Source: Acidisoma sp. L85 (lineage in GTDB: Bacteria; Pseudomonadota; Alphaproteobacteria; Acetobacterales; Acetobacteraceae). From it: a stretch of DNA of 64,000 nt. This document shows positions 30,327 to 62,042 of this stretch, piece after piece; the first letter of the stretch is position 1; each line of letters starts with the position of its first letter. The position numbers and the translations under genes were made by a program. The stretch spans positions 74,723-138,722 of the forward strand of contig NZ_LMUQ01000037.1 in the NCBI RefSeq assembly GCF_009765865.1, written 5' to 3'. Below the pieces are notes generated by a model. That model was not told the origin of the DNA. It ran no database searches and saw only the letters and a program-made list of their open reading frames with translations.

Positions 30327-30413
30327 CGTCATGCTCGGCGAAGGCCGAGCATCCACGCCTTTGCTTGGTCGACGAAGGTAGGCGTGGATGCTCGGCCTTC
30401 GCGTGCCACGACG
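30327..30413. repeat. Intergenic palindromic repeat, BIME-like
   Basis: Two inverted copies of a unit beginning CGTCATG / CGTCGTG and containing GAGCATCCACGCCT, separated by about 18 bases. Each unit is itself palindromic (CTCGGCGAAGGCCGAG). The core CATCCACGCCTTTGCTTG recurs in inverted orientation in the element at 61942-62042. Located between tatC and serS. Confidence 0.7.
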
Positions 30414-30442
30414 ATGTTTACGGCGCGAACATTGTCGAGCGC

Positions 30443-39240: not shown

Positions 39241-40038
39241 ATGCGCATCGCCACTTGGAACGTCAATTCGATCCGCGTCCGCCAGACCCATGTCCGACGC
39301 TGGCTGGAGCGGGTGCGGCCGGATGTTCTGGTTCTGCAGGAGATCAAGTGCGAGTCGGCGGGGTTTCCCGGCGCGGTCTTCGAGGATCTCGGCTACCAGT
39401 CGGAGGCGATCGGGCAGAAGGCCTATAACGGCGTCGCGGTCGTGGCGCGCCAGCCTTTCACGGTGACGCATCGCGCTTTACCGGGCCTGTCCGGTGAGGA
39501 CACCCAGGCGCGCTACATCGAGCTGGAAAGCGGCGGCATCACCGTCATCGGAATCTACCTGCCCAACGGCAATTCCGGCGGCGAGGCTGGCTATGCCTAC
39601 AAGCTCGCCTGGATGGACCTGCTGGCGGAGCGGGCTGAAGCGCTGCTGGACGAGGATCGCGATCTTCTCATCGCCGGAGACTTCAACGTCTGTCCGACGC
39701 CGCTCGACTTCGCACCCGGTACCTTGCCGCCGACCGATGCGCTGCTACGGCTGGAAACGCGGATGCGCTATCGCCGCCTGATCCATGCCGGTCTGACCGA
39801 CGCGGTGCGGACTCTGCATCCGCATGCGCCGGCCTATAGTTTCTGGGATTACCAGGCCGGCGCCTGGGAGCGCGACCGCGGCTTGCGGATCGACTTCGCG
39901 CTGCTGTCCCCGCGCCTCGCGGAGCGGCTCATCGCCGCCGCACCGGACCGAGACGAGCGCGGGGCGGAGCAGCCATCCGACCATGTCCCCGTGGTGGTCG
40001 ACCTCGCCGACGCTACCGCCGAGGTGCTGGCGGCCTGA
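39241..40038 (+). CDS. xth: Exodeoxyribonuclease III
   Basis: AP endonuclease/3'-exonuclease in base excision repair. 265 residues. MRIATWNVNSIRVR, VLVLQEIKCE (metal Glu), YNGVAVVAR, GIYLPNGN, AGDFNVCPTPLDF (catalytic Asp/Asn), FWDYQAGAWERDRGLRIDF and the terminal SDHVPVVVDL (catalytic His) are complete. Second gene after erpA; convergent with the OmpA-like lipoprotein gene, 3 bp apart. Confidence 0.96.
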   Translation: MRIATWNVNSIRVRQTHVRRWLERVRPDVLVLQEIKCESAGFPGAVFEDLGYQSEAIGQKAYNGVAVVARQPFTVTHRALPGLSGEDTQARYIELESGGITVIGIYLPNGNSGGEAGYAYKLAWMDLLAERAEALLDEDRDLLIAGDFNVCPTPLDFAPGTLPPTDALLRLETRMRYRRLIHAGLTDAVRTLHPHAPAYSFWDYQAGAWERDRGLRIDFALLSPRLAERLIAAAPDRDERGAEQPSDHVPVVVDLADATAEVLAA

Positions 40039-40041
40039 GGC

Positions 40042-40446
40042 TTACGGCGCGGTCGGCGAGCCGACGATGATGTCGACGCGGCGAACCTCGATCTTGGACA
40101 TCGGCACGGCGGGTTGAACGGCGCCCATCGGACGAGTCGTTATCCGCGACGGATTGACGCCATCGGCCACCAGTTCTGCCTCCACGGCCTTGGCGCGGAG
40201 GTTGTCCATATCCGCCGGCTCGACATAGTGATGGCCCGGCGGCGCGGAGTAGCCCGCGACCACAACCGACTTATCGCTATAGCGATTGGCGAAGTTCGCT
40301 CCGGCGGTCACGGCGCTGTCCGCGCCATTGTCGAGCGCTGCGGAGTTCGGCGTGAAGAAGACCGGGAAGCTTTGGCCGGCGGGCTCCAACGGAGGGGTGC
40401 AGGCGCCGAGTGCGAGCAGTGCGGTAAGAGCGACAAGCCGGCGCAT
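40042..40446 (-). CDS. Small OmpA-like lipoprotein
   Basis: 134 residues from ATG 40446, with AAGG eight bases upstream (an in-frame TTG two codons before is less likely). Signal peptide RRLVALTALLALGAC with lipobox LGAC. The mature part is an OmpA C-terminal-like fold: VFFTPNSAALDNGAD (strand and helix start), VVVAGYSAPPG, NLRAKAVEAELVADGVNPSRI and RRVDIIVG. It probably binds peptidoglycan from an outer-membrane anchor. The usual Asp/Arg meso-DAP ligand positions are not clear, so binding is inferred. Confidence 0.78.
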   Translation of the reverse strand: MRRLVALTALLALGACTPPLEPAGQSFPVFFTPNSAALDNGADSAVTAGANFANRYSDKSVVVAGYSAPPGHHYVEPADMDNLRAKAVEAELVADGVNPSRITTRPMGAVQPAVPMSKIEVRRVDIIVGSPTAP

Positions 40447-40482
40447 CTTCAATACCTTACAAAAACTTTATAATCTTCCTCG

Positions 40483-40511
40483 GCATTAGATCACGCCCTC
40501 CCCGGCGTCAA
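40483..40511 (-). promoter_or_regulatory. Candidate sigma-70 promoter for the OmpA-like lipoprotein
   Basis: On the minus strand TTGACG (40511-40506), a 17-base spacer and TAATGC (40488-40483), giving an expected start about 30 bases before ATG 40446. Pattern match only. Confidence 0.4.
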
Positions 40512-40542
40512 TCGCAGTGCAGCAACGGCAGCGCTCCCCGGG

Positions 40543-41301
40543 TCAGAACTTCTCCATGCGGTCGCGGTTCTCGATCATGAGCACGTCATGATTGCCAGCC
40601 CAGCCGCGCTCGTTATAGCTGAGGATCCGGGTCGCCTGCGCGCGGCTTGCCATCTCGATCACGGTTGATGCGCGGCATAGCGACACACCGTAATCGTCCG
40701 GGCCAGGGTAACGCGCATAGCCCCAGCCGGTGGCTTCGTAGCCTGCCAGGATCTCGGCCCATTCCACCTCGCCGATCATCGCGCCGTGGCTGCGCTGGAC
40801 CTCCTTGCTCCAATTGCCGTGGATCGTCGCGATCAGGATGCCGCGCGGGCTGAGCAGGCGGCTTAGATGGCACAACCAGGCCTCAGCGCGGGAGCGATCC
40901 ACATGCGTGAAGAGCGACCCGATCCAGATCAGGTCGAAGCCTGTACCGAGTTCGACCGTCGCCAGATCGGGCCGAGAATAAATGCCGGTGCCGCCGAATT
41001 GTTGGGTGCAGAAGTCGACGCCATCCGTCTCGATATCGGCGAAGGTGATCGCGGCGCGGGGAAAGGCGGCGCGCAGATGACGGGCGACACGGCCATGGCC
41101 GCAGGGAAGGTCGAGGATGCGCCTGACATCGCCGAGGCTCGACATGGCAAGCGCGCGAAAAATGACGCGGATCGCATCGACCCCGACCGAGAAATACCAG
41201 TCGGGGCCGGTGTTGAACATGTGGTCCTGCGGAGAGACCGTCTTGTCGATCTCGCGCTTCAGAAAGGCCTCCTCGAGCGCCGCCACCTTCGCGAACTGCA
41301 T
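40543..41301 (-). CDS. Class I SAM-dependent methyltransferase, substrate unknown
   Basis: 252 residues from ATG 41301, which follows GGGGAG. Motif I reads RILDLPCGHGRVARHL, followed by ITFADIETDGVDFC (motif II acidic residue) and FDLIWIGSLFTHVD. This resembles the Methyltransf_25 / glycan- or lipid-associated methyltransferase group. The N-terminal helix region includes DHMFNTGPDWYFSVG. No neighbour explains the substrate. A large gap and separate strand context suggest a single-gene unit. Confidence 0.85.
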   Translation of the reverse strand: MQFAKVAALEEAFLKREIDKTVSPQDHMFNTGPDWYFSVGVDAIRVIFRALAMSSLGDVRRILDLPCGHGRVARHLRAAFPRAAITFADIETDGVDFCTQQFGGTGIYSRPDLATVELGTGFDLIWIGSLFTHVDRSRAEAWLCHLSRLLSPRGILIATIHGNWSKEVQRSHGAMIGEVEWAEILAGYEATGWGYARYPGPDDYGVSLCRASTVIEMASRAQATRILSYNERGWAGNHDVLMIENRDRMEKF

Positions 41302-41439
41302 ATAGCTCCCCACCGTCCCGTCATCAGGTCAGTTTGAAGCCGAAATGAACCGGATGCGCCAGTCATTGTTTGCGCATCCGGTAAATGCAAGCGATGCGGA
41401 GGGCTGGTGTCTTAGTCCCGCCGCCTCAATGACGACTGT

Positions 41440-41760
41440 TCATTGCCAGTGGCCCGGCACCCAGACCCAGCGACCATAGGAATTGGCCCAATGGCCATGG
41501 ATGAAGTGGGCGTAGCGCGGGCCGGCTGGGATGTAGTGGCCGCCGATCCAGGCGTAACGGTAGCCGTCCCATTGCCAATGGCCGGGCTCCCAAACGAAGC
41601 GCGGACCAGGTGGCGGAGGCGGCGGTCCCTCGAAGCGCAGCCCCGGCACAGGCGGGTAGGGATAGCCCTGCGCCTGGGCCGGCGAGGCGCCGGAGATAGT
41701 CGCGGCGCCCAGCAGCGCGCCCAATGCCAAGCTGGCGGCAAGGGCTCGAAAACGGATCAT
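41440..41760 (-). CDS. Secreted YXWGXW-repeat protein
   Basis: 106 residues with a clear signal peptide (MIRFRALAASLALGALLG..AQA, cleaved before QGYPYPP). After a Pro-rich stretch come repeated W/H/G units: FVWEPGHWQWDGYRYAW, GGHYIPAGPRYAHFIHGHW and GRWVWVPGHW. Such proteins are found in the periplasm or outer membrane of many proteobacteria and have no settled function. GAGGAGACCTGG precedes ATG 41760. Confidence 0.85.
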   Translation of the reverse strand: MIRFRALAASLALGALLGAATISGASPAQAQGYPYPPVPGLRFEGPPPPPPGPRFVWEPGHWQWDGYRYAWIGGHYIPAGPRYAHFIHGHWANSYGRWVWVPGHWQ

Positions 41761-41852
41761 CCAGGTCTCCTCATATCTCAGCCGAAGGAGACGGACCGAA
41801 CGCCCGCAGCAAGGCAAAAGCGCGGCGCCGACTGTGACAGAGGGTGAGCCGG

Positions 41853-42974
41853 CTATTCCGCCGCCTTGCGCGACGCCGCGCTGGCGATTTCCCGCCGCAT
41901 CGCCGGCAGCACGTCCTGCGCCAGGCGCTCCATCGTGCCCCATTCGCGCGCGCGGTTCTGGTTGCTGCCGTCCATCGAGGCCATGAGCAGCGTCGAGAAA
42001 GGGCCGACCCGCTCCCGGAAGCCGAGGAGCTTTTCGGTGACGGTCTTGGCGGAGCCATAGATGACCATGCTTTCGATCATCCCCTCCACCGTGACATCGG
42101 CGTCGGCCATCTTGGGGTCGCTCTTCATCACCGCCGTGTAGTCGGCGCGCTTCAGAACCTCCCAGAGGTAGTGGAAGTAGTAGTAGTTGCTGCCTTTGGG
42201 ATCCATGACCCAGTCCAGCGCCTCCTGGTCGCTCTCGGCCACAAGCAGGTTGCGGGCAACGCGCCAATCATGGCCGTCAGGTTCGCGGCCAGCCGCACGG
42301 CAGCCCTCGGCGTATTTCTTGAAGTGGCTGCCGACGATCCATTCGGGACAGAAATTGGCGCTGATCGGACTCCAGCCGCGCTCGGCCGCCACCTTCACGC
42401 TGCCGGAATAGGGCGACATGGCGGACATCGCGATGGGCGGATGGGGTTTCTGGAACGGCTTGCCCATGTAGCCGACACCAAGCTCCGGCACGATCGAGTC
42501 GGTGATCTTGATATGCCAATGCTTGCCCTTGAGGTCGTAGGGCGGGTCCTGGCCCCAGATCGCCAGGATATGGTCGATGCTCTCCATCATCCGTTCGTTG
42601 CGGATCGTGGGATCGGTATTGCCGAACAGCTCGTGATCGCTGGAAAGACCCGCCGGCCCGATGCCGAAGACGAAGCGGCCTCCGCTGAGATGATCGAACA
42701 TCGCGGCCTCGGCGGCAACGATGGCCGGGTGGTGGTTCGGCAGACCCACAACGCCAGTTCCGAAGACGATCGACTTGGTGCGATGGATCAGCGAGGCCAT
42801 CAGCATCATCGGCGCGCAGAACGGCTCGGTGGCGGCGGAGAAATGCTCCCCCACCCAGGCCTCGTCGAAGCCCAGGCGGTCGGCATGGATGATCTTCTCG
42901 GAATTCTCCGAGATGGTGTCGCGCATCGAGCGATCGGCCGGGTGCAGCGGCATCTGGAACAGGCCAAGCTTCAT
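41853..42974 (-). CDS. LLM-class flavin-dependent monooxygenase
   Basis: 373 residues. Luciferase-like TIM-barrel protein: MKLGLFQMPLHPADR, FDEAWVGEHFSA, SIVFGTGVVGLPNHHPAIVA, DHLSGGRFVFGIGPAG and the C-terminal GSAKTVTEKLLGFRERVGPF are typical of the group near limonene/alkanal monooxygenase-like proteins. FMNH2 would come from a separate reductase, none of which is nearby. ATG 42974 is preceded by GGGAGGA at six bases. A perfect short palindrome lies 32-47 bases upstream. Confidence 0.9.
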   Translation of the reverse strand: MKLGLFQMPLHPADRSMRDTISENSEKIIHADRLGFDEAWVGEHFSAATEPFCAPMMLMASLIHRTKSIVFGTGVVGLPNHHPAIVAAEAAMFDHLSGGRFVFGIGPAGLSSDHELFGNTDPTIRNERMMESIDHILAIWGQDPPYDLKGKHWHIKITDSIVPELGVGYMGKPFQKPHPPIAMSAMSPYSGSVKVAAERGWSPISANFCPEWIVGSHFKKYAEGCRAAGREPDGHDWRVARNLLVAESDQEALDWVMDPKGSNYYYFHYLWEVLKRADYTAVMKSDPKMADADVTVEGMIESMVIYGSAKTVTEKLLGFRERVGPFSTLLMASMDGSNQNRAREWGTMERLAQDVLPAMRREIASAASRKAAE

Positions 42975-43005
42975 CGAATGTCCTCCCGCCCCGCGTCTCG
43001 CGCGC

Positions 43006-43021
43006 GGATTGTCAACAATCC
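43006..43021 (-). promoter_or_regulatory. 16-bp palindrome upstream of the LLM oxidoreductase
   Basis: GGATTGT-CA-ACAATCC, perfect 7-bp inverted repeat with a 2-base centre, located in the promoter zone of the gene starting at 42974. The TTGT-N2-ACAA centre looks like an operator of the GntR (FadR-type) family. No regulator gene is adjacent. Confidence 0.45.
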
Positions 43022-43085
43022 ACGCAGAGTGCGGCCATGGCCGAGGGAGTGTCAACGACCGCCGCGGCGGCGCGTGTGGGTTTGG

Positions 43086-43633
43086 TCATGCGCGGGGTTT
43101 ATAATGGAACTGCCAATAGCATTTGCCCCTCTTCGCTATGAACTGCTCGGGATATTTCTGCGCCAGGTTCAGCATGCCTGGCCCCAGCGCTCTGGAATTC
43201 GCGTAGGCATTTCCCACGCCCGGGAATTCTGGGCGGTATGTGTTGAGCCAGTGAACCAACAAGTCGGTTGTCAGAGGGTATTCCTCGCTCGATTTCGCCA
43301 TAAGGACTTTCGCTAAAAATTCCTGCGGCCCCGTAAGGTTAAATAGGCAGGTTGGGTATTGATCCCATCGAGGCGACGGCGATGCGACGTTAGGCTGCTC
43401 AACCGCCGGCACTTGACCAGACGGCTGTATGGATTCCGGAACGATGGTTGCAACACAGCGCAAGCCTGGTTGTGGCAGATAGCTCCTGAACGGAAAACCC
43501 GTGCCACGAATGGAGGCGGCACTTGATGGTGCGATGACCGGTTCTGAATTGGCGAGAACTGGTCTTGTTGCGTCTGTGTCTGGCCCTCCGGCGTCGGTGA
43601 CCTGGAAACAACAGGCGTCGAACTTCCCGGCAT
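43086..43633 (-). pseudogene. Family-2 orphan gene, apparently frameshifted
   Basis: The leader and ATG 43633 (MPGSSTPVVSRSPTPEGQ, a Pro/Gln-rich start) match the two paralogs to the right, but the conserved C-terminal domain is in another frame. That frame has no stop back past the start, yet also no good start codon near the RBS; a TTG at 43463 is the first candidate. The domain reads FLAKVLM, HWLNTYRPEFPGVGNAY, MLNLAQKYPEQF and GKCYWQFH. Either a single indel in the linker killed the gene, or a frameshift or internal start is used. Codon use and G+C differ from the neighbouring oxidoreductase. Confidence 0.55.
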
Positions 43634-43680
43634 CACATTCTTCCTCGTGACAGAAGATGCGTATCGCAGGAATGTCTTAA
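43634..43680 (-). promoter_or_regulatory. Conserved leader, family-2 gene at 43633
   Basis: On the minus strand: TTAA (43680-43677), GCGATACGC (43667-43659), then CACGAGGA as ribosome-binding site before the ATG. The same order and spacing precede the genes starting at 44540 and 45422; the distance from the GCGATACGC block to the ATG is 24-26 bases in all three. Confidence 0.5.
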
Positions 43681-43913
43681 TGGTTGATATCGCTGCGACA
43701 TGGAAACGCAGCGAGATTCCGTCACCGAAATCAAACTGAATTCGCCGTCGAGCGGCAGCCGGCTCTTTGGCGCACCGCCTTCAAATGCCGCATCGCCGTG
43801 CGGATACGGCCGGGCTGATGGGGCATCAACGACCAGGGCGGCGCGCGCCTGGTAACCTTGGTCAGTCGCTATTTTCCGTAGGTAGCCGACAACCACAGCG
43901 AAGCCCGCAAGAC

Positions 43914-44540
43914 TTAAGTCGGTGCGCCTGGGATGGCCCAGAAAAACCAGCAACCTTCGCCCGGTGGGACCCGCTGCCCCGCACAATGTTCAGGATGACT
44001 TCTGATCAGCCTGATCATGGCTGACCGTATGTAATCCTCGCGCCGATAGGCGTCTCCAGCTTCAGGAAATTGACGACGATGTGTGCCAGCTAAATTGTGA
44101 AGTTGAACGGACGAAAGTTGGTGCGTCGGATTCGAGTGAGCGGAGAGAACGCTGGCCAGAAAGTGTTGCGTGACGTTTAGACCCGGAATCCAGTCCGCGC
44201 GCCGAATATCCGCGGGTATTGCTGGCGGTGGCGGCCGTAGGACGCGAAGTCTCGTTCCGAACAACGGAACTTGACCGATGGCCCCCGGAAGTTGCGGGTC
44301 GGTGGGCTGTTGGATTAAGGCGAGTGTGCCTGTGCGCTCTTGGTTACTCGTCGGAAGGTAACTTGTGTTTGCCGGCGGAGCCACGACTGTGCCGCCCAGC
44401 TGATGTGGACAGTCGTTTGGGACGAACGGTGGGCTCGGCGCGAGCAGCTCAAACGAAGATTGATTGCCGGGCTGGTCATCCGAAACGGACTGACCCATGG
44501 GCGTCGGCGGTCCGAACCTGAATACGTCTGCTCCCGACAT
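43914..44540 (-). CDS. Family-2 orphan protein, intact
   Basis: 208 residues, no family recognised. MSGADVFRFGPPTPMGQ begins a polar, Pro/Gln-rich, probably disordered half. From about residue 128 a compact C-terminal domain follows: HFLASVLS, LHNLAGTHRRQFPEAGDAY, YIRSAMIRLIRSHPEHC and GEGCWFFWAIPG. The FP-x-x-G-[ND]-A-Y and [YH]P-E motifs are shared with the neighbours. ATG 44540 has CACGAGGAG at the right distance and the conserved leader; the frame extends upstream without similarity. A disordered N-terminus plus small C-terminal domain would fit a secreted or effector-like protein, but no secretion signal is visible. Confidence 0.6.
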   Translation of the reverse strand: MSGADVFRFGPPTPMGQSVSDDQPGNQSSFELLAPSPPFVPNDCPHQLGGTVVAPPANTSYLPTSNQERTGTLALIQQPTDPQLPGAIGQVPLFGTRLRVLRPPPPAIPADIRRADWIPGLNVTQHFLASVLSAHSNPTHQLSSVQLHNLAGTHRRQFPEAGDAYRREDYIRSAMIRLIRSHPEHCAGQRVPPGEGCWFFWAIPGAPT

Positions 44541-44585
44541 GGCGCTCTCCTCGTGAGAAGAGACGCGTATCGCCAAACACGTTAA
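44541..44585 (-). promoter_or_regulatory. Conserved leader, family-2 gene at 44540
   Basis: Minus strand: TTAA (44585-44582), GCGATACGC (44573-44565), CTCTTCTCACGAGGAG before the ATG. Shared with the leaders at 43634 and 45423. Confidence 0.5.
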
Positions 44586-44618
44586 CGCGTTGATACTCTC
44601 GCCGGTTGTCTGGTCTCT

Positions 44619-44755
44619 GCCCAAGCGGCCGAGCGGCGCGTCGAGGCGCGCGCCGTTTTAGCGGTGAAACCGGCAAGGCGCTCGCGGCACCACCTCCGGC
44701 TTGGCGCGAGAGACGAAGCTCTCGGTGGCAAACTTTCGCTTGCACCTTGCGCGCC
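44619..44755 (-). pseudogene. Decayed second copy of the valS 3' end
   Basis: About 137 bp align along their length with the last bases of valS (45701-45850) at clear but imperfect identity, including CCCAAGCGGCCGAG, GTGAAACCGGCAAGGCG, CACCTCCGGCTTGGCGCG and CTTGCACCTTGCGCGCC. It has lost the stop codon and carries at least one small deletion (near 44690). It ends about 23 bp from the stop of the orphan gene 44778-45422, so that gene is flanked by direct copies of the valS 3' end. Confidence 0.8.
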
Positions 44756-44777
44756 AGCCCGGGGGACGGCCGGGGTC

Positions 44778-45422
44778 TTAGGTCGGAGGCCGGCCTACTC
44801 CGTAAATGTGATCAGGACCCGCTACGACGTAGAAGTAATCGGGATACCGCGCCACAAGCAGTTCGAAGGCCCTTCGCATGTTCTGCGGTCTTGTATAGGT
44901 GTTTGGATAGAGCTCCGGCGGTCGCGCGAGCCATGCTGCGTAGAGTTGGTGCGCTGCAACAGGTTGCGGCAGTTGACGGAGGATTCCTGCCAATGCGAAC
45001 GGTCGACCATGGAGGCCAGGCGGCAGCACGGGTGCAGCGGCGACAGGTTGCACCTGCTGTGGCTGTGGCTGTGGCTGTGGCTGTGGCTGTGGCAATACCC
45101 GTGCCGGTGCCTGGGGCAGAGGCTGCGACAGTTGCGGGATCGGCGGCTGGGCCTCAGTCACCTGGGGTCGGGGGGCAAGCTGGCGGCGGGCCACCAGGAT
45201 CCGACGGGGCTCGTCCACCGGAAGGTCCTGAGGCAGTGGACCGAGCGGAAGGCGCCGGTAGGTCGGCGAACGAGGAACGACCGTTCGCCTCGTCAGGGGC
45301 ATCACGGTCTGAGCCGGATTCTGGAGCTGCTGCCAGAGCTGAAACGGAATCTCTCCGACCTCCAGCTCACCAGGCGGCGTAATTGGGCCAGTATTAATAA
45401 TAGGCCCGATCGATTGCGACAT
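44778..45422 (-). CDS. Family-2 orphan protein with (Gln-Pro) tract
   Basis: 214 residues, no family recognised. MSQSIGPIINTGPITPPGEL starts a long Pro/Gln/Arg-rich region with an uninterrupted Gln-Pro tract (~110-122). The C-terminal domain (about 140-214) reads FALAGILRQ, LYAAWLARPPELYPNTY, MRRAFELLVARYPDYF and HIYGVGRPP, aligning with the family-2 paralogs to the left. ATG 45422 follows AAAGGAGG and the conserved leader. It sits between intact valS and the decayed valS 3' copy. Function unknown. Confidence 0.6.
   Translation of the reverse strand: MSQSIGPIINTGPITPPGELEVGEIPFQLWQQLQNPAQTVMPLTRRTVVPRSPTYRRLPLGPLPQDLPVDEPRRILVARRQLAPRPQVTEAQPPIPQLSQPLPQAPARVLPQPQPQPQPQPQQVQPVAAAPVLPPGLHGRPFALAGILRQLPQPVAAHQLYAAWLARPPELYPNTYTRPQNMRRAFELLVARYPDYFYVVAGPDHIYGVGRPPT
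45057..45093. repeat. Hexanucleotide microsatellite (GGCTGT)n
   Basis: About six copies of a GGCTGT unit, on the minus strand coding the alternating Gln-Pro tract of the orphan protein 44778-45422. Because the unit is two codons long, copy-number change would alter protein length without shifting the frame. Confidence 0.85.
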
Positions 45423-45467
45423 GGCAACCTCCTTTGAGAAGAGGCGCGTATCGCAGGAAGGTCTTAA
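45423..45467 (-). promoter_or_regulatory. Conserved leader, family-2 gene at 45422
   Basis: Minus strand: TTAA (45467-45464), GCGATACGC (45454-45446), CTCTTCTCAAAGGAGG before the ATG. Together with the two other leaders it defines a TTAA-N9/10-GCGATACGC element. Confidence 0.5.
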
Positions 45468-45700
45468 CTCGTTTGCACCTTTGCATTCCAGAAACGTCGT
45501 GCTGCTCAACTTTTATCAAAGCGGCATCTGGATATTCGCGGATCACAAGATTTTTGCTTTGCGATTTATAAACGTTCACGCACCCGAGTGTTCGTCCCGA
45601 TATCGAAACTCCACAGGCCGCATGGCCGAGACCGGAACGCCTCCGGATTACAAATCCTGCAGTGCCCGCCCGGCAAACGCGATCCAGCTCTACCTCAGCC
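45468..45700. other. Spacer between valS and the orphan cluster
   Basis: About 230 bp of lower G+C with no supported gene. On the minus strand 45630-45665 there is a tRNA-Thr(UGU)-like anticodon arm (GCAGGATTTGTAATCC), but no full cloverleaf can be drawn. Otherwise nothing is recognised. Confidence 0.4.
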
Positions 45701-48394
45701 TCAGCCCAAGCGGCCGAGTGCCGCTTCGAGACGTGCTGCTTCAGCCGTGAAACCGGCAAGGCGTTCGCGGTTTTCCTCCACCACCTCCGGCTTGGCGCGC
45801 GAGACGAAGCTTTCGTTGGAGAGCTTGGCTTGCACCTTGCGCGCCTCCTCCAAGGCCTTCGCGCGCTCCTTCTCCAGCCGCACGCGCTCGGCGCCGAGGT
45901 CGATCAGACCGGCTAGAGGCAGCACGATGGTGATCGGCCCCAGCACGGCTTGCGCCGAACCCGCTGGCGCCTCGCCTTCGAGCGGCCGCACCTCGGAAGC
46001 GCGGGCCATGCGGCGGATGGTGTCCTCCCAGCGCGCCGCGCGCGCCAAGGCTTCGGCATCGGCATCGCGCAGCAGGATCGGTGCCAGGATCGAGGGCGGC
46101 ACGCGCATCTCGGACCGCACGCCGCGAACCTCGGTGATGAGACCGACAATCCAGTCGAGCTCGGCCCGCGCTGCCTCGGCCTCGGCCGCCGCGGCCGGCT
46201 TGGGCCAGGGTGCCCGGATGAGCGTGCCCTCGGCGCCGAAGCCGAAGGCGCCCCACAGCTCCTCGGTCACGAAGGGCATCGCGGGATGCAGCAAGCGCAG
46301 GATGGTGCCGAGGACATGCGCCGCGACCGCGCGGATCTCACTCGCTTCCGGGGACTCGCCCTGGGCGAAGACGGGTTTTGCGAATTCCAGGAACCAGTCG
46401 CAGTACGTGTTCCATGTGAAACGATAGCAGGCGGCGGCGTAGTCGTTGAGGCGGTAGGCGTCCAAGGCCGCCGTCGCCTCGGCCACCGCTACATTGGCGG
46501 AATCGAGCAGCCAGCGGCTGAGCGGCAATTTCACCTGCGCCGGATCGAAGCCTGGCACCGGGGCCACGCCGTTCATCTCGCAGAAGCGCGCGGCGTTCCA
46601 CAGCTTGGTGACGAAGCTGCGATAGCTCTCGACGATGGCGGGGCTGAGCTTGACGTCCCGGCCCGGCCCGGTCAGCGCGCAGATGGTGAAGCGCAGGGCA
46701 TCCGTGCCGAATTGGTCGATGAGCGCCAGCGGGTCGATGACATTGCCCTTGGACTTGGACATCTTCTGGCCGCGCTCGTCCCGCACCAGGCCATGGATAT
46801 AGACCGTGCGGAACGGCACATCGCCCATCACATGCAGCCCCATCATCATCATCCGGGCGACCCAGAAGAAGATGATGTCGAAGGCGGTGACGAGTACGTC
46901 GGTCGGATAGTACCGGGCAAGCTCCGGAGTCTGGTCGGGCCAGCCGAGGGTCGAGAAGGGCCACAGGCCGGAGCTGAACCAGGTGTCCAGCACGTCCTCG
47001 TCCTGGGTCAGCACTTCGTCGGTCCCGTAGGCAGTGCGGGCGAGGGCCGCGGCACCTGCCGCGTCCTCGGCGACGAAGACCTGGCCGTCCGGACCGTACC
47101 AGGCCGGGATGCGATGGCCCCACCAGAGCTGGCGGCTGATGCACCAGGGCTCGATCTCGCGCAGCCAGGCGAAGAAGGTGTTTTCCCATTGGCGCGGCAC
47201 GAAGACGGTGCGCCCCTCCTCCACCGCGCGGATCGCCGGCTTGGCGAGTTCGGCGGCGTTGCAGAACCATTGCGTGGTCAACAGGGGCTCGATCGGCACG
47301 CCGGAACGGTCGCCATGCGGCACCTGATTGCGGTGACGCTCGACCTGGACCAGCAGATCCAGCCGCTCAAGCTCGGCGACAATCGCGGCGCGGACGGCGA
47401 AACGGTCCTGGCCGGCGAGGCGCGTGAGGTAGGCGGGATCGGCGATGCCTTCGACCGCCCGCATCTCGCCGGCGATCTCGTCGATGACGAACCCCGCCTG
47501 GCGATCGAGGATCGAGGGCATGGGCAAGGCGTGGCGCTGGCCCACCGCGAAATCGTTGAAGTCATGCGCGGGGGTGATCTTGACCGCGCCGGTGCCCTTT
47601 TCGGGGTCGGAGTAGCCGTCGGCGATGATCGGAATGCGGCGACCGACCAGCGGCAGAATGGCGTGGCGGCCGATCAGGTCCCGATACCGCTCATCCTCGG
47701 GGTTCACCGCCACCGCGACATCGCCCGGCAGGGTCTCGGGCCGCGTGGTGGCGACGGTGATGAAGCGATCCGGCACCCCCTCGATGGGGTAGCGGATGTA
47801 CCAAAGGGAGCCGTCCATCTCCCGGCTTTCCACTTCGAGGTCGGAGATCGCCGATTGGAAGGCGGGGTCCCAGTTCACCAGGCGGCGGTCGCGGTAGATA
47901 AGACCCTGGCCATGCATCTCGACGAAGACGCGGCGGACGGCGCGGGACAGACCCTCGTCCATGGTGAAACGCTCGCGCGGCCAGTCCAGCGACGCGCCAA
48001 GGCGGCGGAGCTGCCGGGTGATGGTGCCGCCGGATTCGGCCTTCCATTGCCAGACGCGGTCGAGAAAAGCCTCGCGACCCTGTTGCTTGCGGCTAGTGCC
48101 TTCGGCGGCGAGGAGACGCTCGACCACCATCTGGGTCGCGATACCGGCATGGTCGGAACCGGGCTGCCACAAAGTGTCTCGCCGTTGCATGCGGCGAAAA
48201 CGGACGAGCGCGTCCTGGACGGTGAAGGTTAGCGCATGACCGATATGCAGGCTGCCCGTGACATTGGGCGGCGGGATCATGATGGTGAAGGGATCGGCGT
48301 CCGAGGTGGGGTCGGCCGCGAAGGCGCCGCTGCTTTCCCAGATAGCGTAGAGGCGCGCCTCGGCTTCCGCCGGCGAGAAGGACTTTTCGAGCAT
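45701..48394 (-). CDS. valS: Valyl-tRNA synthetase
   Basis: 897 residues, class I. IMIPPPNVTGSLHIGHALTF (HIGH), the editing domain, QKMSKSKGNVIDP (KMSKS), the anticodon domain and the C-terminal coiled coil (LIDLGAERVRLEKERAKALE) are present. It starts MLEKSFSPAEAEARLYAIW. Lies directly downstream of popZ, as in most alphaproteobacteria. Its 3' end has a decayed duplicate about 1 kb downstream. Confidence 0.97.
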   Translation of the reverse strand: MLEKSFSPAEAEARLYAIWESSGAFAADPTSDADPFTIMIPPPNVTGSLHIGHALTFTVQDALVRFRRMQRRDTLWQPGSDHAGIATQMVVERLLAAEGTSRKQQGREAFLDRVWQWKAESGGTITRQLRRLGASLDWPRERFTMDEGLSRAVRRVFVEMHGQGLIYRDRRLVNWDPAFQSAISDLEVESREMDGSLWYIRYPIEGVPDRFITVATTRPETLPGDVAVAVNPEDERYRDLIGRHAILPLVGRRIPIIADGYSDPEKGTGAVKITPAHDFNDFAVGQRHALPMPSILDRQAGFVIDEIAGEMRAVEGIADPAYLTRLAGQDRFAVRAAIVAELERLDLLVQVERHRNQVPHGDRSGVPIEPLLTTQWFCNAAELAKPAIRAVEEGRTVFVPRQWENTFFAWLREIEPWCISRQLWWGHRIPAWYGPDGQVFVAEDAAGAAALARTAYGTDEVLTQDEDVLDTWFSSGLWPFSTLGWPDQTPELARYYPTDVLVTAFDIIFFWVARMMMMGLHVMGDVPFRTVYIHGLVRDERGQKMSKSKGNVIDPLALIDQFGTDALRFTICALTGPGRDVKLSPAIVESYRSFVTKLWNAARFCEMNGVAPVPGFDPAQVKLPLSRWLLDSANVAVAEATAALDAYRLNDYAAACYRFTWNTYCDWFLEFAKPVFAQGESPEASEIRAVAAHVLGTILRLLHPAMPFVTEELWGAFGFGAEGTLIRAPWPKPAAAAEAEAARAELDWIVGLITEVRGVRSEMRVPPSILAPILLRDADAEALARAARWEDTIRRMARASEVRPLEGEAPAGSAQAVLGPITIVLPLAGLIDLGAERVRLEKERAKALEEARKVQAKLSNESFVSRAKPEVVEENRERLAGFTAEAARLEAALGRLG

Positions 48395-61903: not shown

Positions 61904-61941
61904 TAGGTGATGTTTTGGCCTGGATCGCAACCAAAGGATAT

Positions 61942-62042
61942 CGTCATGGCACGCGAAGGCGTGCGGGGCACCCCGGGCATCTACGCCTTGCCTTTGTCAC
62001 GCAAGCAAAGGCGTGGATGCCCGGCATTCGCCGGACATGACG
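61942..62042. repeat. Intergenic palindromic repeat, BIME-like
   Basis: Begins CGTCATGGCACGCGAAGGCGTGC and ends with an inverted unit CATTCGCCGGACATGACG. The inner part GGGCATCTACGCCTTGCC pairs with GGCGTGGATGCCC. The 18-base core CATCCACGCCTTTGCTTG (reverse strand) is identical to that in the element at 30327. Lies between two MFS genes. The remainder up to 62236 holds a short imperfect direct repeat (CCAGAGA-ATCCTGCTT type) and no gene. Confidence 0.7.

Follow-up and report, generated by a model that had tools for sequence, protein, structure and literature searches.

A degraded duplicate of the valS 3' end beside an orphan gene in Acidisoma sp. L85, possibly the scar of a single crossover

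Introduction

How does an orphan gene come to stand between an intact housekeeping gene and a decayed copy of that same gene's 3' end? This layout is found at valS of Acidisoma sp. L85 (assembly GCF_009765865.1), within positions 74,723 to 138,722 of the forward strand of contig NZ_LMUQ01000037.1. We refer to this whole stretch of 64,000 nucleotides as the window, and all coordinates below are window coordinates. An earlier note, made from the letters of the DNA alone, had read the duplicated valS end either as integration into valS with regeneration of its end or as a tandem duplication that carried an orphan gene, and had taken it to show how a gene family was seeded or expanded. Some prophages and islands do integrate site specifically into the 3' end of a gene and regenerate that end. 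We found that the duplicate is a degraded copy of the valS end that arose in this lineage, and we tentatively interpret it as the scar of a single crossover in valS that placed one orphan gene before another.

Results

The intact valS is an open frame of 897 amino acids on the minus strand (45701-48394). Behind it, in the same direction, lies an open frame of 214 amino acids that we call orphan gene c (44778-45422, minus strand), wedged, as the earlier note had it, between valS and the decayed copy. That copy, hereafter the remnant, is a direct one, oriented as valS (44615-44755, minus strand). The proposed mutated duplicate of about 137 bp by the c stop was borne out by local alignment (score of 156, with a best of 28 among 200 shuffles), although its extent had to be corrected to 141 bp, with its start 22 bp past the c stop codon and its end about 3 bp past the former valS stop. 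In a six-sequence alignment, 118 of the 137 aligned bases were identical between the remnant and intact valS, and the remnant carried indels of +1, -8, and +2. The TGA stop of valS reads AGA in the remnant, and the stop codon is thus lost.

We then used the final 161 bp of the valS region to search the whole genome of the strain (85 contigs, 6,376,414 bases). Among the 14 rows returned were valS itself, the remnant (E value of 2.4e-32, 135 bits), and 12 minor matches spanning 16 to 36 bp (E values of 0.02 to 0.9), so that the genome holds no copy of the valS end other than these two. When the window was compared with itself by BLAST, two off-diagonal matches were obtained at an E value of ≤1e-6, and the remnant/valS pair was the stronger. 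A profile built from six valS ends and run against positions 40001 to 45900 likewise matched valS and the remnant only (next match, 1.9 bits, E value of 0.2), and a third valS end was found neither between orphan genes b and a nor at the distal edge of the inserted DNA, both described below. One candidate valS end in the gap between b and a had a pairwise score of 40, which was equalled by 3 of 200 shuffles; it was rejected, the profile search being negative there.

The site was compared with a genus set of five genomes, own included, with one genome per species. The valS protein was found at one place in each of the four relatives, 81 to 85% identical over its full length, and the DNA similarity of the relatives to the window broke off at the valS stop (45701 or 45705). 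All four carry a single valS end followed by a short gene and then an OmpA-family gene, which represents an empty site. The match to the OmpA-family gene starts 534 to 575 bp past the valS stop in the relatives and about 5.25 kb past it here. In the window, the minus-strand order is valS, c, remnant, orphan gene b, orphan gene a, a monooxygenase gene, the short gene, a methyltransferase gene, and the OmpA-family gene, and an insert of 3.85 kb (41853-45700) separates valS from the short gene. The monooxygenase gene, the three orphan genes, the remnant, and the methyltransferase gene are therefore extra in this genome.

For a wider comparison, we used the last 211 residues of valS and took the best 80 of the 153 loci fetched, from genomes mostly titled Acetobacteraceae or its genera. 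Seventy-nine of these 80 loci were scorable, with at least 100 bp downstream of valS. A comparable copy of the valS end (141 bp, E value of about 1e-31) was present in none of the 79, while short matches of 17 to 65 bp to the respective locus's own valS end (E value of ≤1e-3) occurred in 6 of them. Neither the four genus genomes (0/4) nor these scorable loci (0/79) thus shared the remnant, the outcome that would have refuted the reading of the earlier note. Against the four relatives, the intact valS end was identical at 107, 100, 104, and 102 of 137 bases and the remnant at 98, 92, 95, and 93 of 138 bases. Since the remnant is closest to its own valS and the intact valS is nearer to the relatives, the remnant is a degraded copy that arose in this lineage after the split.

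If a tandem duplication had carried the orphan gene, as the earlier note offered, then c and its neighbor b would be sisters. Gene b (43914-44540, minus strand, 208 amino acids) follows the remnant, and its leader (44541-44590, minus strand) lies about 25 bp downstream of it. In all 200 runs in which gene pairs were simulated at the divergence of the remnant (0.12 to 0.25 changes per site per branch, indels included, four settings), the score was never below 100. The real DNAs of b and c scored 37, and 26 of 200 shuffles did at least as well. Scores this low appeared when the simulated divergence was raised to about 0.4 to 0.6 changes per site per branch, where 15 of 50 and 46 of 50 runs gave them. 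The similarity of b and c is thus far below what the age of the remnant leads one to expect, and the copying of the valS end made neither of them as a sister of the other. They were already different genes at that time, unless the genes changed several times faster than the remnant or gene conversion kept the remnant young. Nor is the seeding or expansion of a family explained; at most, the locus records how one member was placed before another.

What, then, produced the remnant? Tentatively, and at somewhat less than even confidence, we favor a recombination scar, in which DNA with a valS 3' end and c circularized, entered by a single crossover in valS, and stacked c before b. We infer the circularization, the crossover, a related strain as the source of the DNA, and a former position of b directly behind valS as follows. 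A fragment carrying a valS 3' end and then c would have closed into a circle, with the closure joint (44755/44756) linking a point 22 bp past the c stop to a point 141 bp before the valS end. A single crossover within valS would have integrated this circle, yielding one full valS, then c, and then, before b, the 141 bp displaced from the end of valS. The displaced copy would have been functionless and free to decay, and b and c would be old, different genes, each of which once stood behind valS.

The locus has the appearance of such a scar in that a partial copy of the target gene, in the same orientation, flanks inserted DNA that four of four relatives lack at this site, the 3.85-kb insert being larger than the c unit. 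No more than 3 bp separate the end of the copy from the valS stop, where the relatives lose similarity, as would be expected if two alleles of valS had been followed by different genes. Furthermore, third codon positions hold 11 of the 18 differences between the remnant and valS, which is closer to the share of 0.71 among functional valS orthologs than to the 0.33 of plain decay (P = 0.014 against the latter), and we lean toward the view that part of the divergence dates from a time when both ends were functional.

Several observations weigh against this interpretation. Third-position differences to the relatives amount to 0.40 to 0.48 in the last 48 valS codons and to 0.36 to 0.42 elsewhere; these codons therefore resemble the rest of valS, and the intact end bears no mark of foreign origin. 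We had also considered that the intact valS end might be a mosaic, which the codon-position comparison with the relatives did not support. The 11 of 18 differences are not significant against a null of local duplication with both copies changing (P = 0.06 to 0.13), and a hand recount with another gap placement gave 12 of 19 at third positions (P = 0.04 to 0.09). Differences are also unevenly spread along the remnant, with 2 in the middle 57 bases and 17 in the other 80 (Fisher P = 0.0025, with borders chosen post hoc). This could reflect gene conversion with valS, for which it gives some support, and gene conversion would make the remnant seem too young and thus weaken the argument from age. 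Finally, no strain with valS followed by b, or with valS and c alone, was present among the genomes compared, and the valS-c-remnant-b joints are those given by the assembly.

Local tandem duplication of a unit made of the valS 3' end, the interval, and c, with subsequent deletion of the second c so that a valS end was left before b, fits the layout nearly as well as the crossover, and we regard it as rather unlikely but the best of the other accounts. It needs no outside DNA, the start of the remnant 22 bp past the c stop is the joint it would be expected to leave, and the intact valS, which lacks a foreign 3' end, agrees with it. Unlike the single crossover, it requires two events, and the deletion would have had to begin, by chance, no more than 3 bp from the valS stop and to remove all 277 bp upstream of c; the interval between the valS stop and c (45423-45700, minus strand; guanine-plus-cytosine [GC] content of 0.53) is present as a single copy in the genome. 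The excess of third-position differences is suggestive against it as well.

It is improbable that template switching during repair inserted a stray duplicate of the valS end between c and b, independently of the arrival of either gene. The shortness and single occurrence of the remnant would suit such an origin, which does not account for the end of the copy at the valS stop or for its place, in the same order, before a leader-bearing gene.

Still less probable is that a single event doubled the valS end together with an orphan gene and that the sisters b and c then diverged very fast. The order and direction of valS end, leader, and gene do occur twice, and the leaders of b and c agree in 41 of 51 aligned bases, start codon included (score of 42, with at most 30 in 200 shuffles). 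Nevertheless, none of the 200 simulated pairs of the age of the remnant scored as low as the real pair, and the b protein is nearer to that of a (E value of 2e-12) than to that of c (E value of 0.035).

Site-specific integration with regeneration of the valS end would account for a restored 3' end, a truncated copy left behind, and direct repeats flanking c. It predicts that the displaced end would lie on the distal side of the insert, beside the short gene (41412-41741), where the profile of valS ends was negative. No recombinase or integrase was found among the seven proteins scanned against Pfam, those of a, b, c, and the monooxygenase gene included, with short frames outside the scan. As candidate RNA relics at an integration site, we considered and rejected the one tRNA of the window, which is distant (51809), and seven Rfam matches, all below their gathering scores (E values of 0.23 to 5). 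A literature search on valS as an integration site returned no paper obviously on the subject. Of the earlier note's proposal, integration anchored in valS survives as the best reading, the DNA being extra relative to four of four relatives, whereas regeneration of the gene end does not: a unit between the repeats that is one 645-bp gene without a recombinase, repeats of 141 bp that are mutated and unlike a short exact att core, the lack of any remnant on the distal side of the 3.85-kb insert, and the lack of a tRNA or known RNA at the site leave little doubt in rejecting it.

The three orphan genes share a leader of about 50 bp directly before the start codon, which is 75 to 80% conserved, while their coding DNA is far less alike. 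The leader of c lies at 45423-45472 and that of a at 43637-43683, both on the minus strand. Besides the b-c pair, the remaining two pairs agreed in 40 of 50 and in 38 of 51 positions of their alignments with the start codon included, and none of 200 dinucleotide shuffles came up to the score of any pair. In a scan of 397 family genomes, the leader core was present three times in our own genome and was missing from the other 396. Two matches with at most one mismatch, one each in genomes G001 and G003, were set aside as chance, as a reversed control matched once in G002 and once in G003. Retention of the leader amid protein divergence suggests that regulation or the protein start is the conserved part. 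Scans for promoters and terminators gave signals at or below the level of shuffles.

The proteins of a and b have a C-terminal domain in common (25 of 76 residues, 33%). In a (about 43086-43636, minus strand), which has a frame-broken appearance, the start region and this domain lie in different reading frames, and the gene is probably broken. The body of c compared with a or b gave local scores that were equalled by 49 and 96 of 1,000 shuffles, which is below significance, and a profile of a and b ranked c 45th among c and 2,000 shuffles, 1,813 of these being among the matches listed. The N terminus of c resembled that of a to a degree reached by 7 of 1,000 shuffles. Leader and place thus tie c to the orphan set, with no demonstrable tie through its protein. 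Its open frame weakly suggests that c is coding.

Neither Pfam nor NCBIfam gave a match above the cutoff for a, b, or c; two sub-threshold NCBIfam matches for c, and four matches in a sequence search of solved structures (E values of 0.02 to 0.5), were not used. The C-terminal 85 amino acids of b are predicted to be winged-helix-like. The model of this domain has three helices followed by two strands (H-H-H-E-E, helices plus wing), with a best predicted local distance difference test (pLDDT) score of 85.4 and scores of 52 to 76 for the other four models. Foldseek returned nothing at an E value of ≤0.001 with this model (best E value, 0.06), and the best VIA-align hit had a Z score of 8.5 and a root mean square deviation of 2.6 over 73 residues, with many ties. 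The structure model of c was poor (pLDDT of 63).

Profile searches of family, order, and class genomes revealed no relative of a, b, or c outside the strain's own genome. A three-row profile matched 5 of 299 family genomes at an E value of ≤0.01, and the five rows outside our own three genes (G255 twice, G232, G210, and G195) were judged to be chance after their reading frames had been read; we take these frames to be aminotransferase-like and LysR-like. In the order, whose sampling overlaps the family set, 3 of 395 genomes matched at an E value of ≤0.001, namely, the own genome and two of the same chance matches, and in the class, 1 of 385, the own genome. A search of the genus with c gave a single match (E value of 0.11) with four stops, which we also took as chance. 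Viral contigs contained neither a relative of a, b, or c nor the leader pattern, plasmids contained no relative of the three genes, and phages contained none of b, the sole query in that search.

Third-position GC content is 0.58 to 0.63 in a, b, and c and 0.81 to 0.86 in valS, the monooxygenase gene, the methyltransferase gene, and two further genes. The distal part of the insert is the luciferase-like monooxygenase gene (41853-42974, minus strand; Pfam PF00296, E value of 1.3e-45). Its own third-position GC content is 0.86, which is native-like, and its nearest other copies, 42 to 45% identical, lie elsewhere in the own genome and in two sister genomes. The short Pro/Trp-rich gene that follows is on the minus strand (third-position GC content of 0.69) and stands directly after valS in the four relatives, with a DNA match in four of four. 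The next conserved neighbor is the OmpA-family gene (40042-40452, minus strand; Pfam PF00691; third-position GC content of 0.80), again with a DNA match in four of four relatives. These two genes are direct neighbors in the relatives and are split here by the methyltransferase gene (40543-41313, minus strand), a second local insertion. Elsewhere in the window, a palindromic element around GCGTGGATGC has copies at 30327-30415 and 61940-62042, which look intergenic, are 75% alike, and have opposite orientations. We presume this pair to be perhaps a REP-like repeat.

Discussion

The putative scar described here is of a known kind; the orphan genes are unfamiliar. In E. coli conjugation, circularized DNA integrated by a single crossover, and 109 to 950 bp of the lacZ end were duplicated in the 14 clones sequenced (PMC3240628). 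Our locus is like that case in its one-gene anchor and its partial direct copy of a gene end, of 141 bp as against 109 to 950. Unlike that case, which involved an engineered plasmid and selection, the event here is deduced from one natural genome, and the anchor is valS. Homology-facilitated illegitimate recombination combines one homologous end with one non-homologous joint, as would be the case here (PMC3240628, PMC2884548). Its expected product is a deletion and not a duplication (PMC3240628), and the single-crossover form thus fits better.

A second comparison is offered by the immunity-gene arrays of the Vibrio cholerae type VI secretion system, in which newcomers are stacked before older genes by sequential displacement and, in one case, the older effector gene left its 3' end behind in the array, shifted back (PMC5361080). 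Duplication was rejected there because the array members were too different. As in those arrays, the newcomer at our locus would be anchored on the upstream gene, with the older gene kept and shifted back. Unlike in the arrays, the anchor is an intact housekeeping gene and not an effector gene, there are only three orphan genes, in one strain, and no effector-immunity pair was seen.

One genome with one scar is, by itself, a modest finding. It nonetheless carries a caution, in that a partial duplicate beside paralogs is no proof that they were duplicated jointly, and the simulated-age test is simple and reusable. If the crossover reading is right, adjacent orphan genes with a common leader need not be tandem duplicates, and the locus would be a dated example of an unfamiliar gene placed behind an essential gene without mobile-element machinery. 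It is conceivable, though doubtful, that within this species the valS 3' end serves repeatedly as a landing platform. Each strain would then have its own members of a lineage-specific gene family behind valS, under the conserved ~50-bp leader, and these would be rapidly replaced through recombination anchored in valS, and perhaps also in the leader, with older members stacked downstream and valS stubs between them. If this were true, the site would be a displacement-type cassette array built on an essential housekeeping gene, for which an integrase would not be needed.

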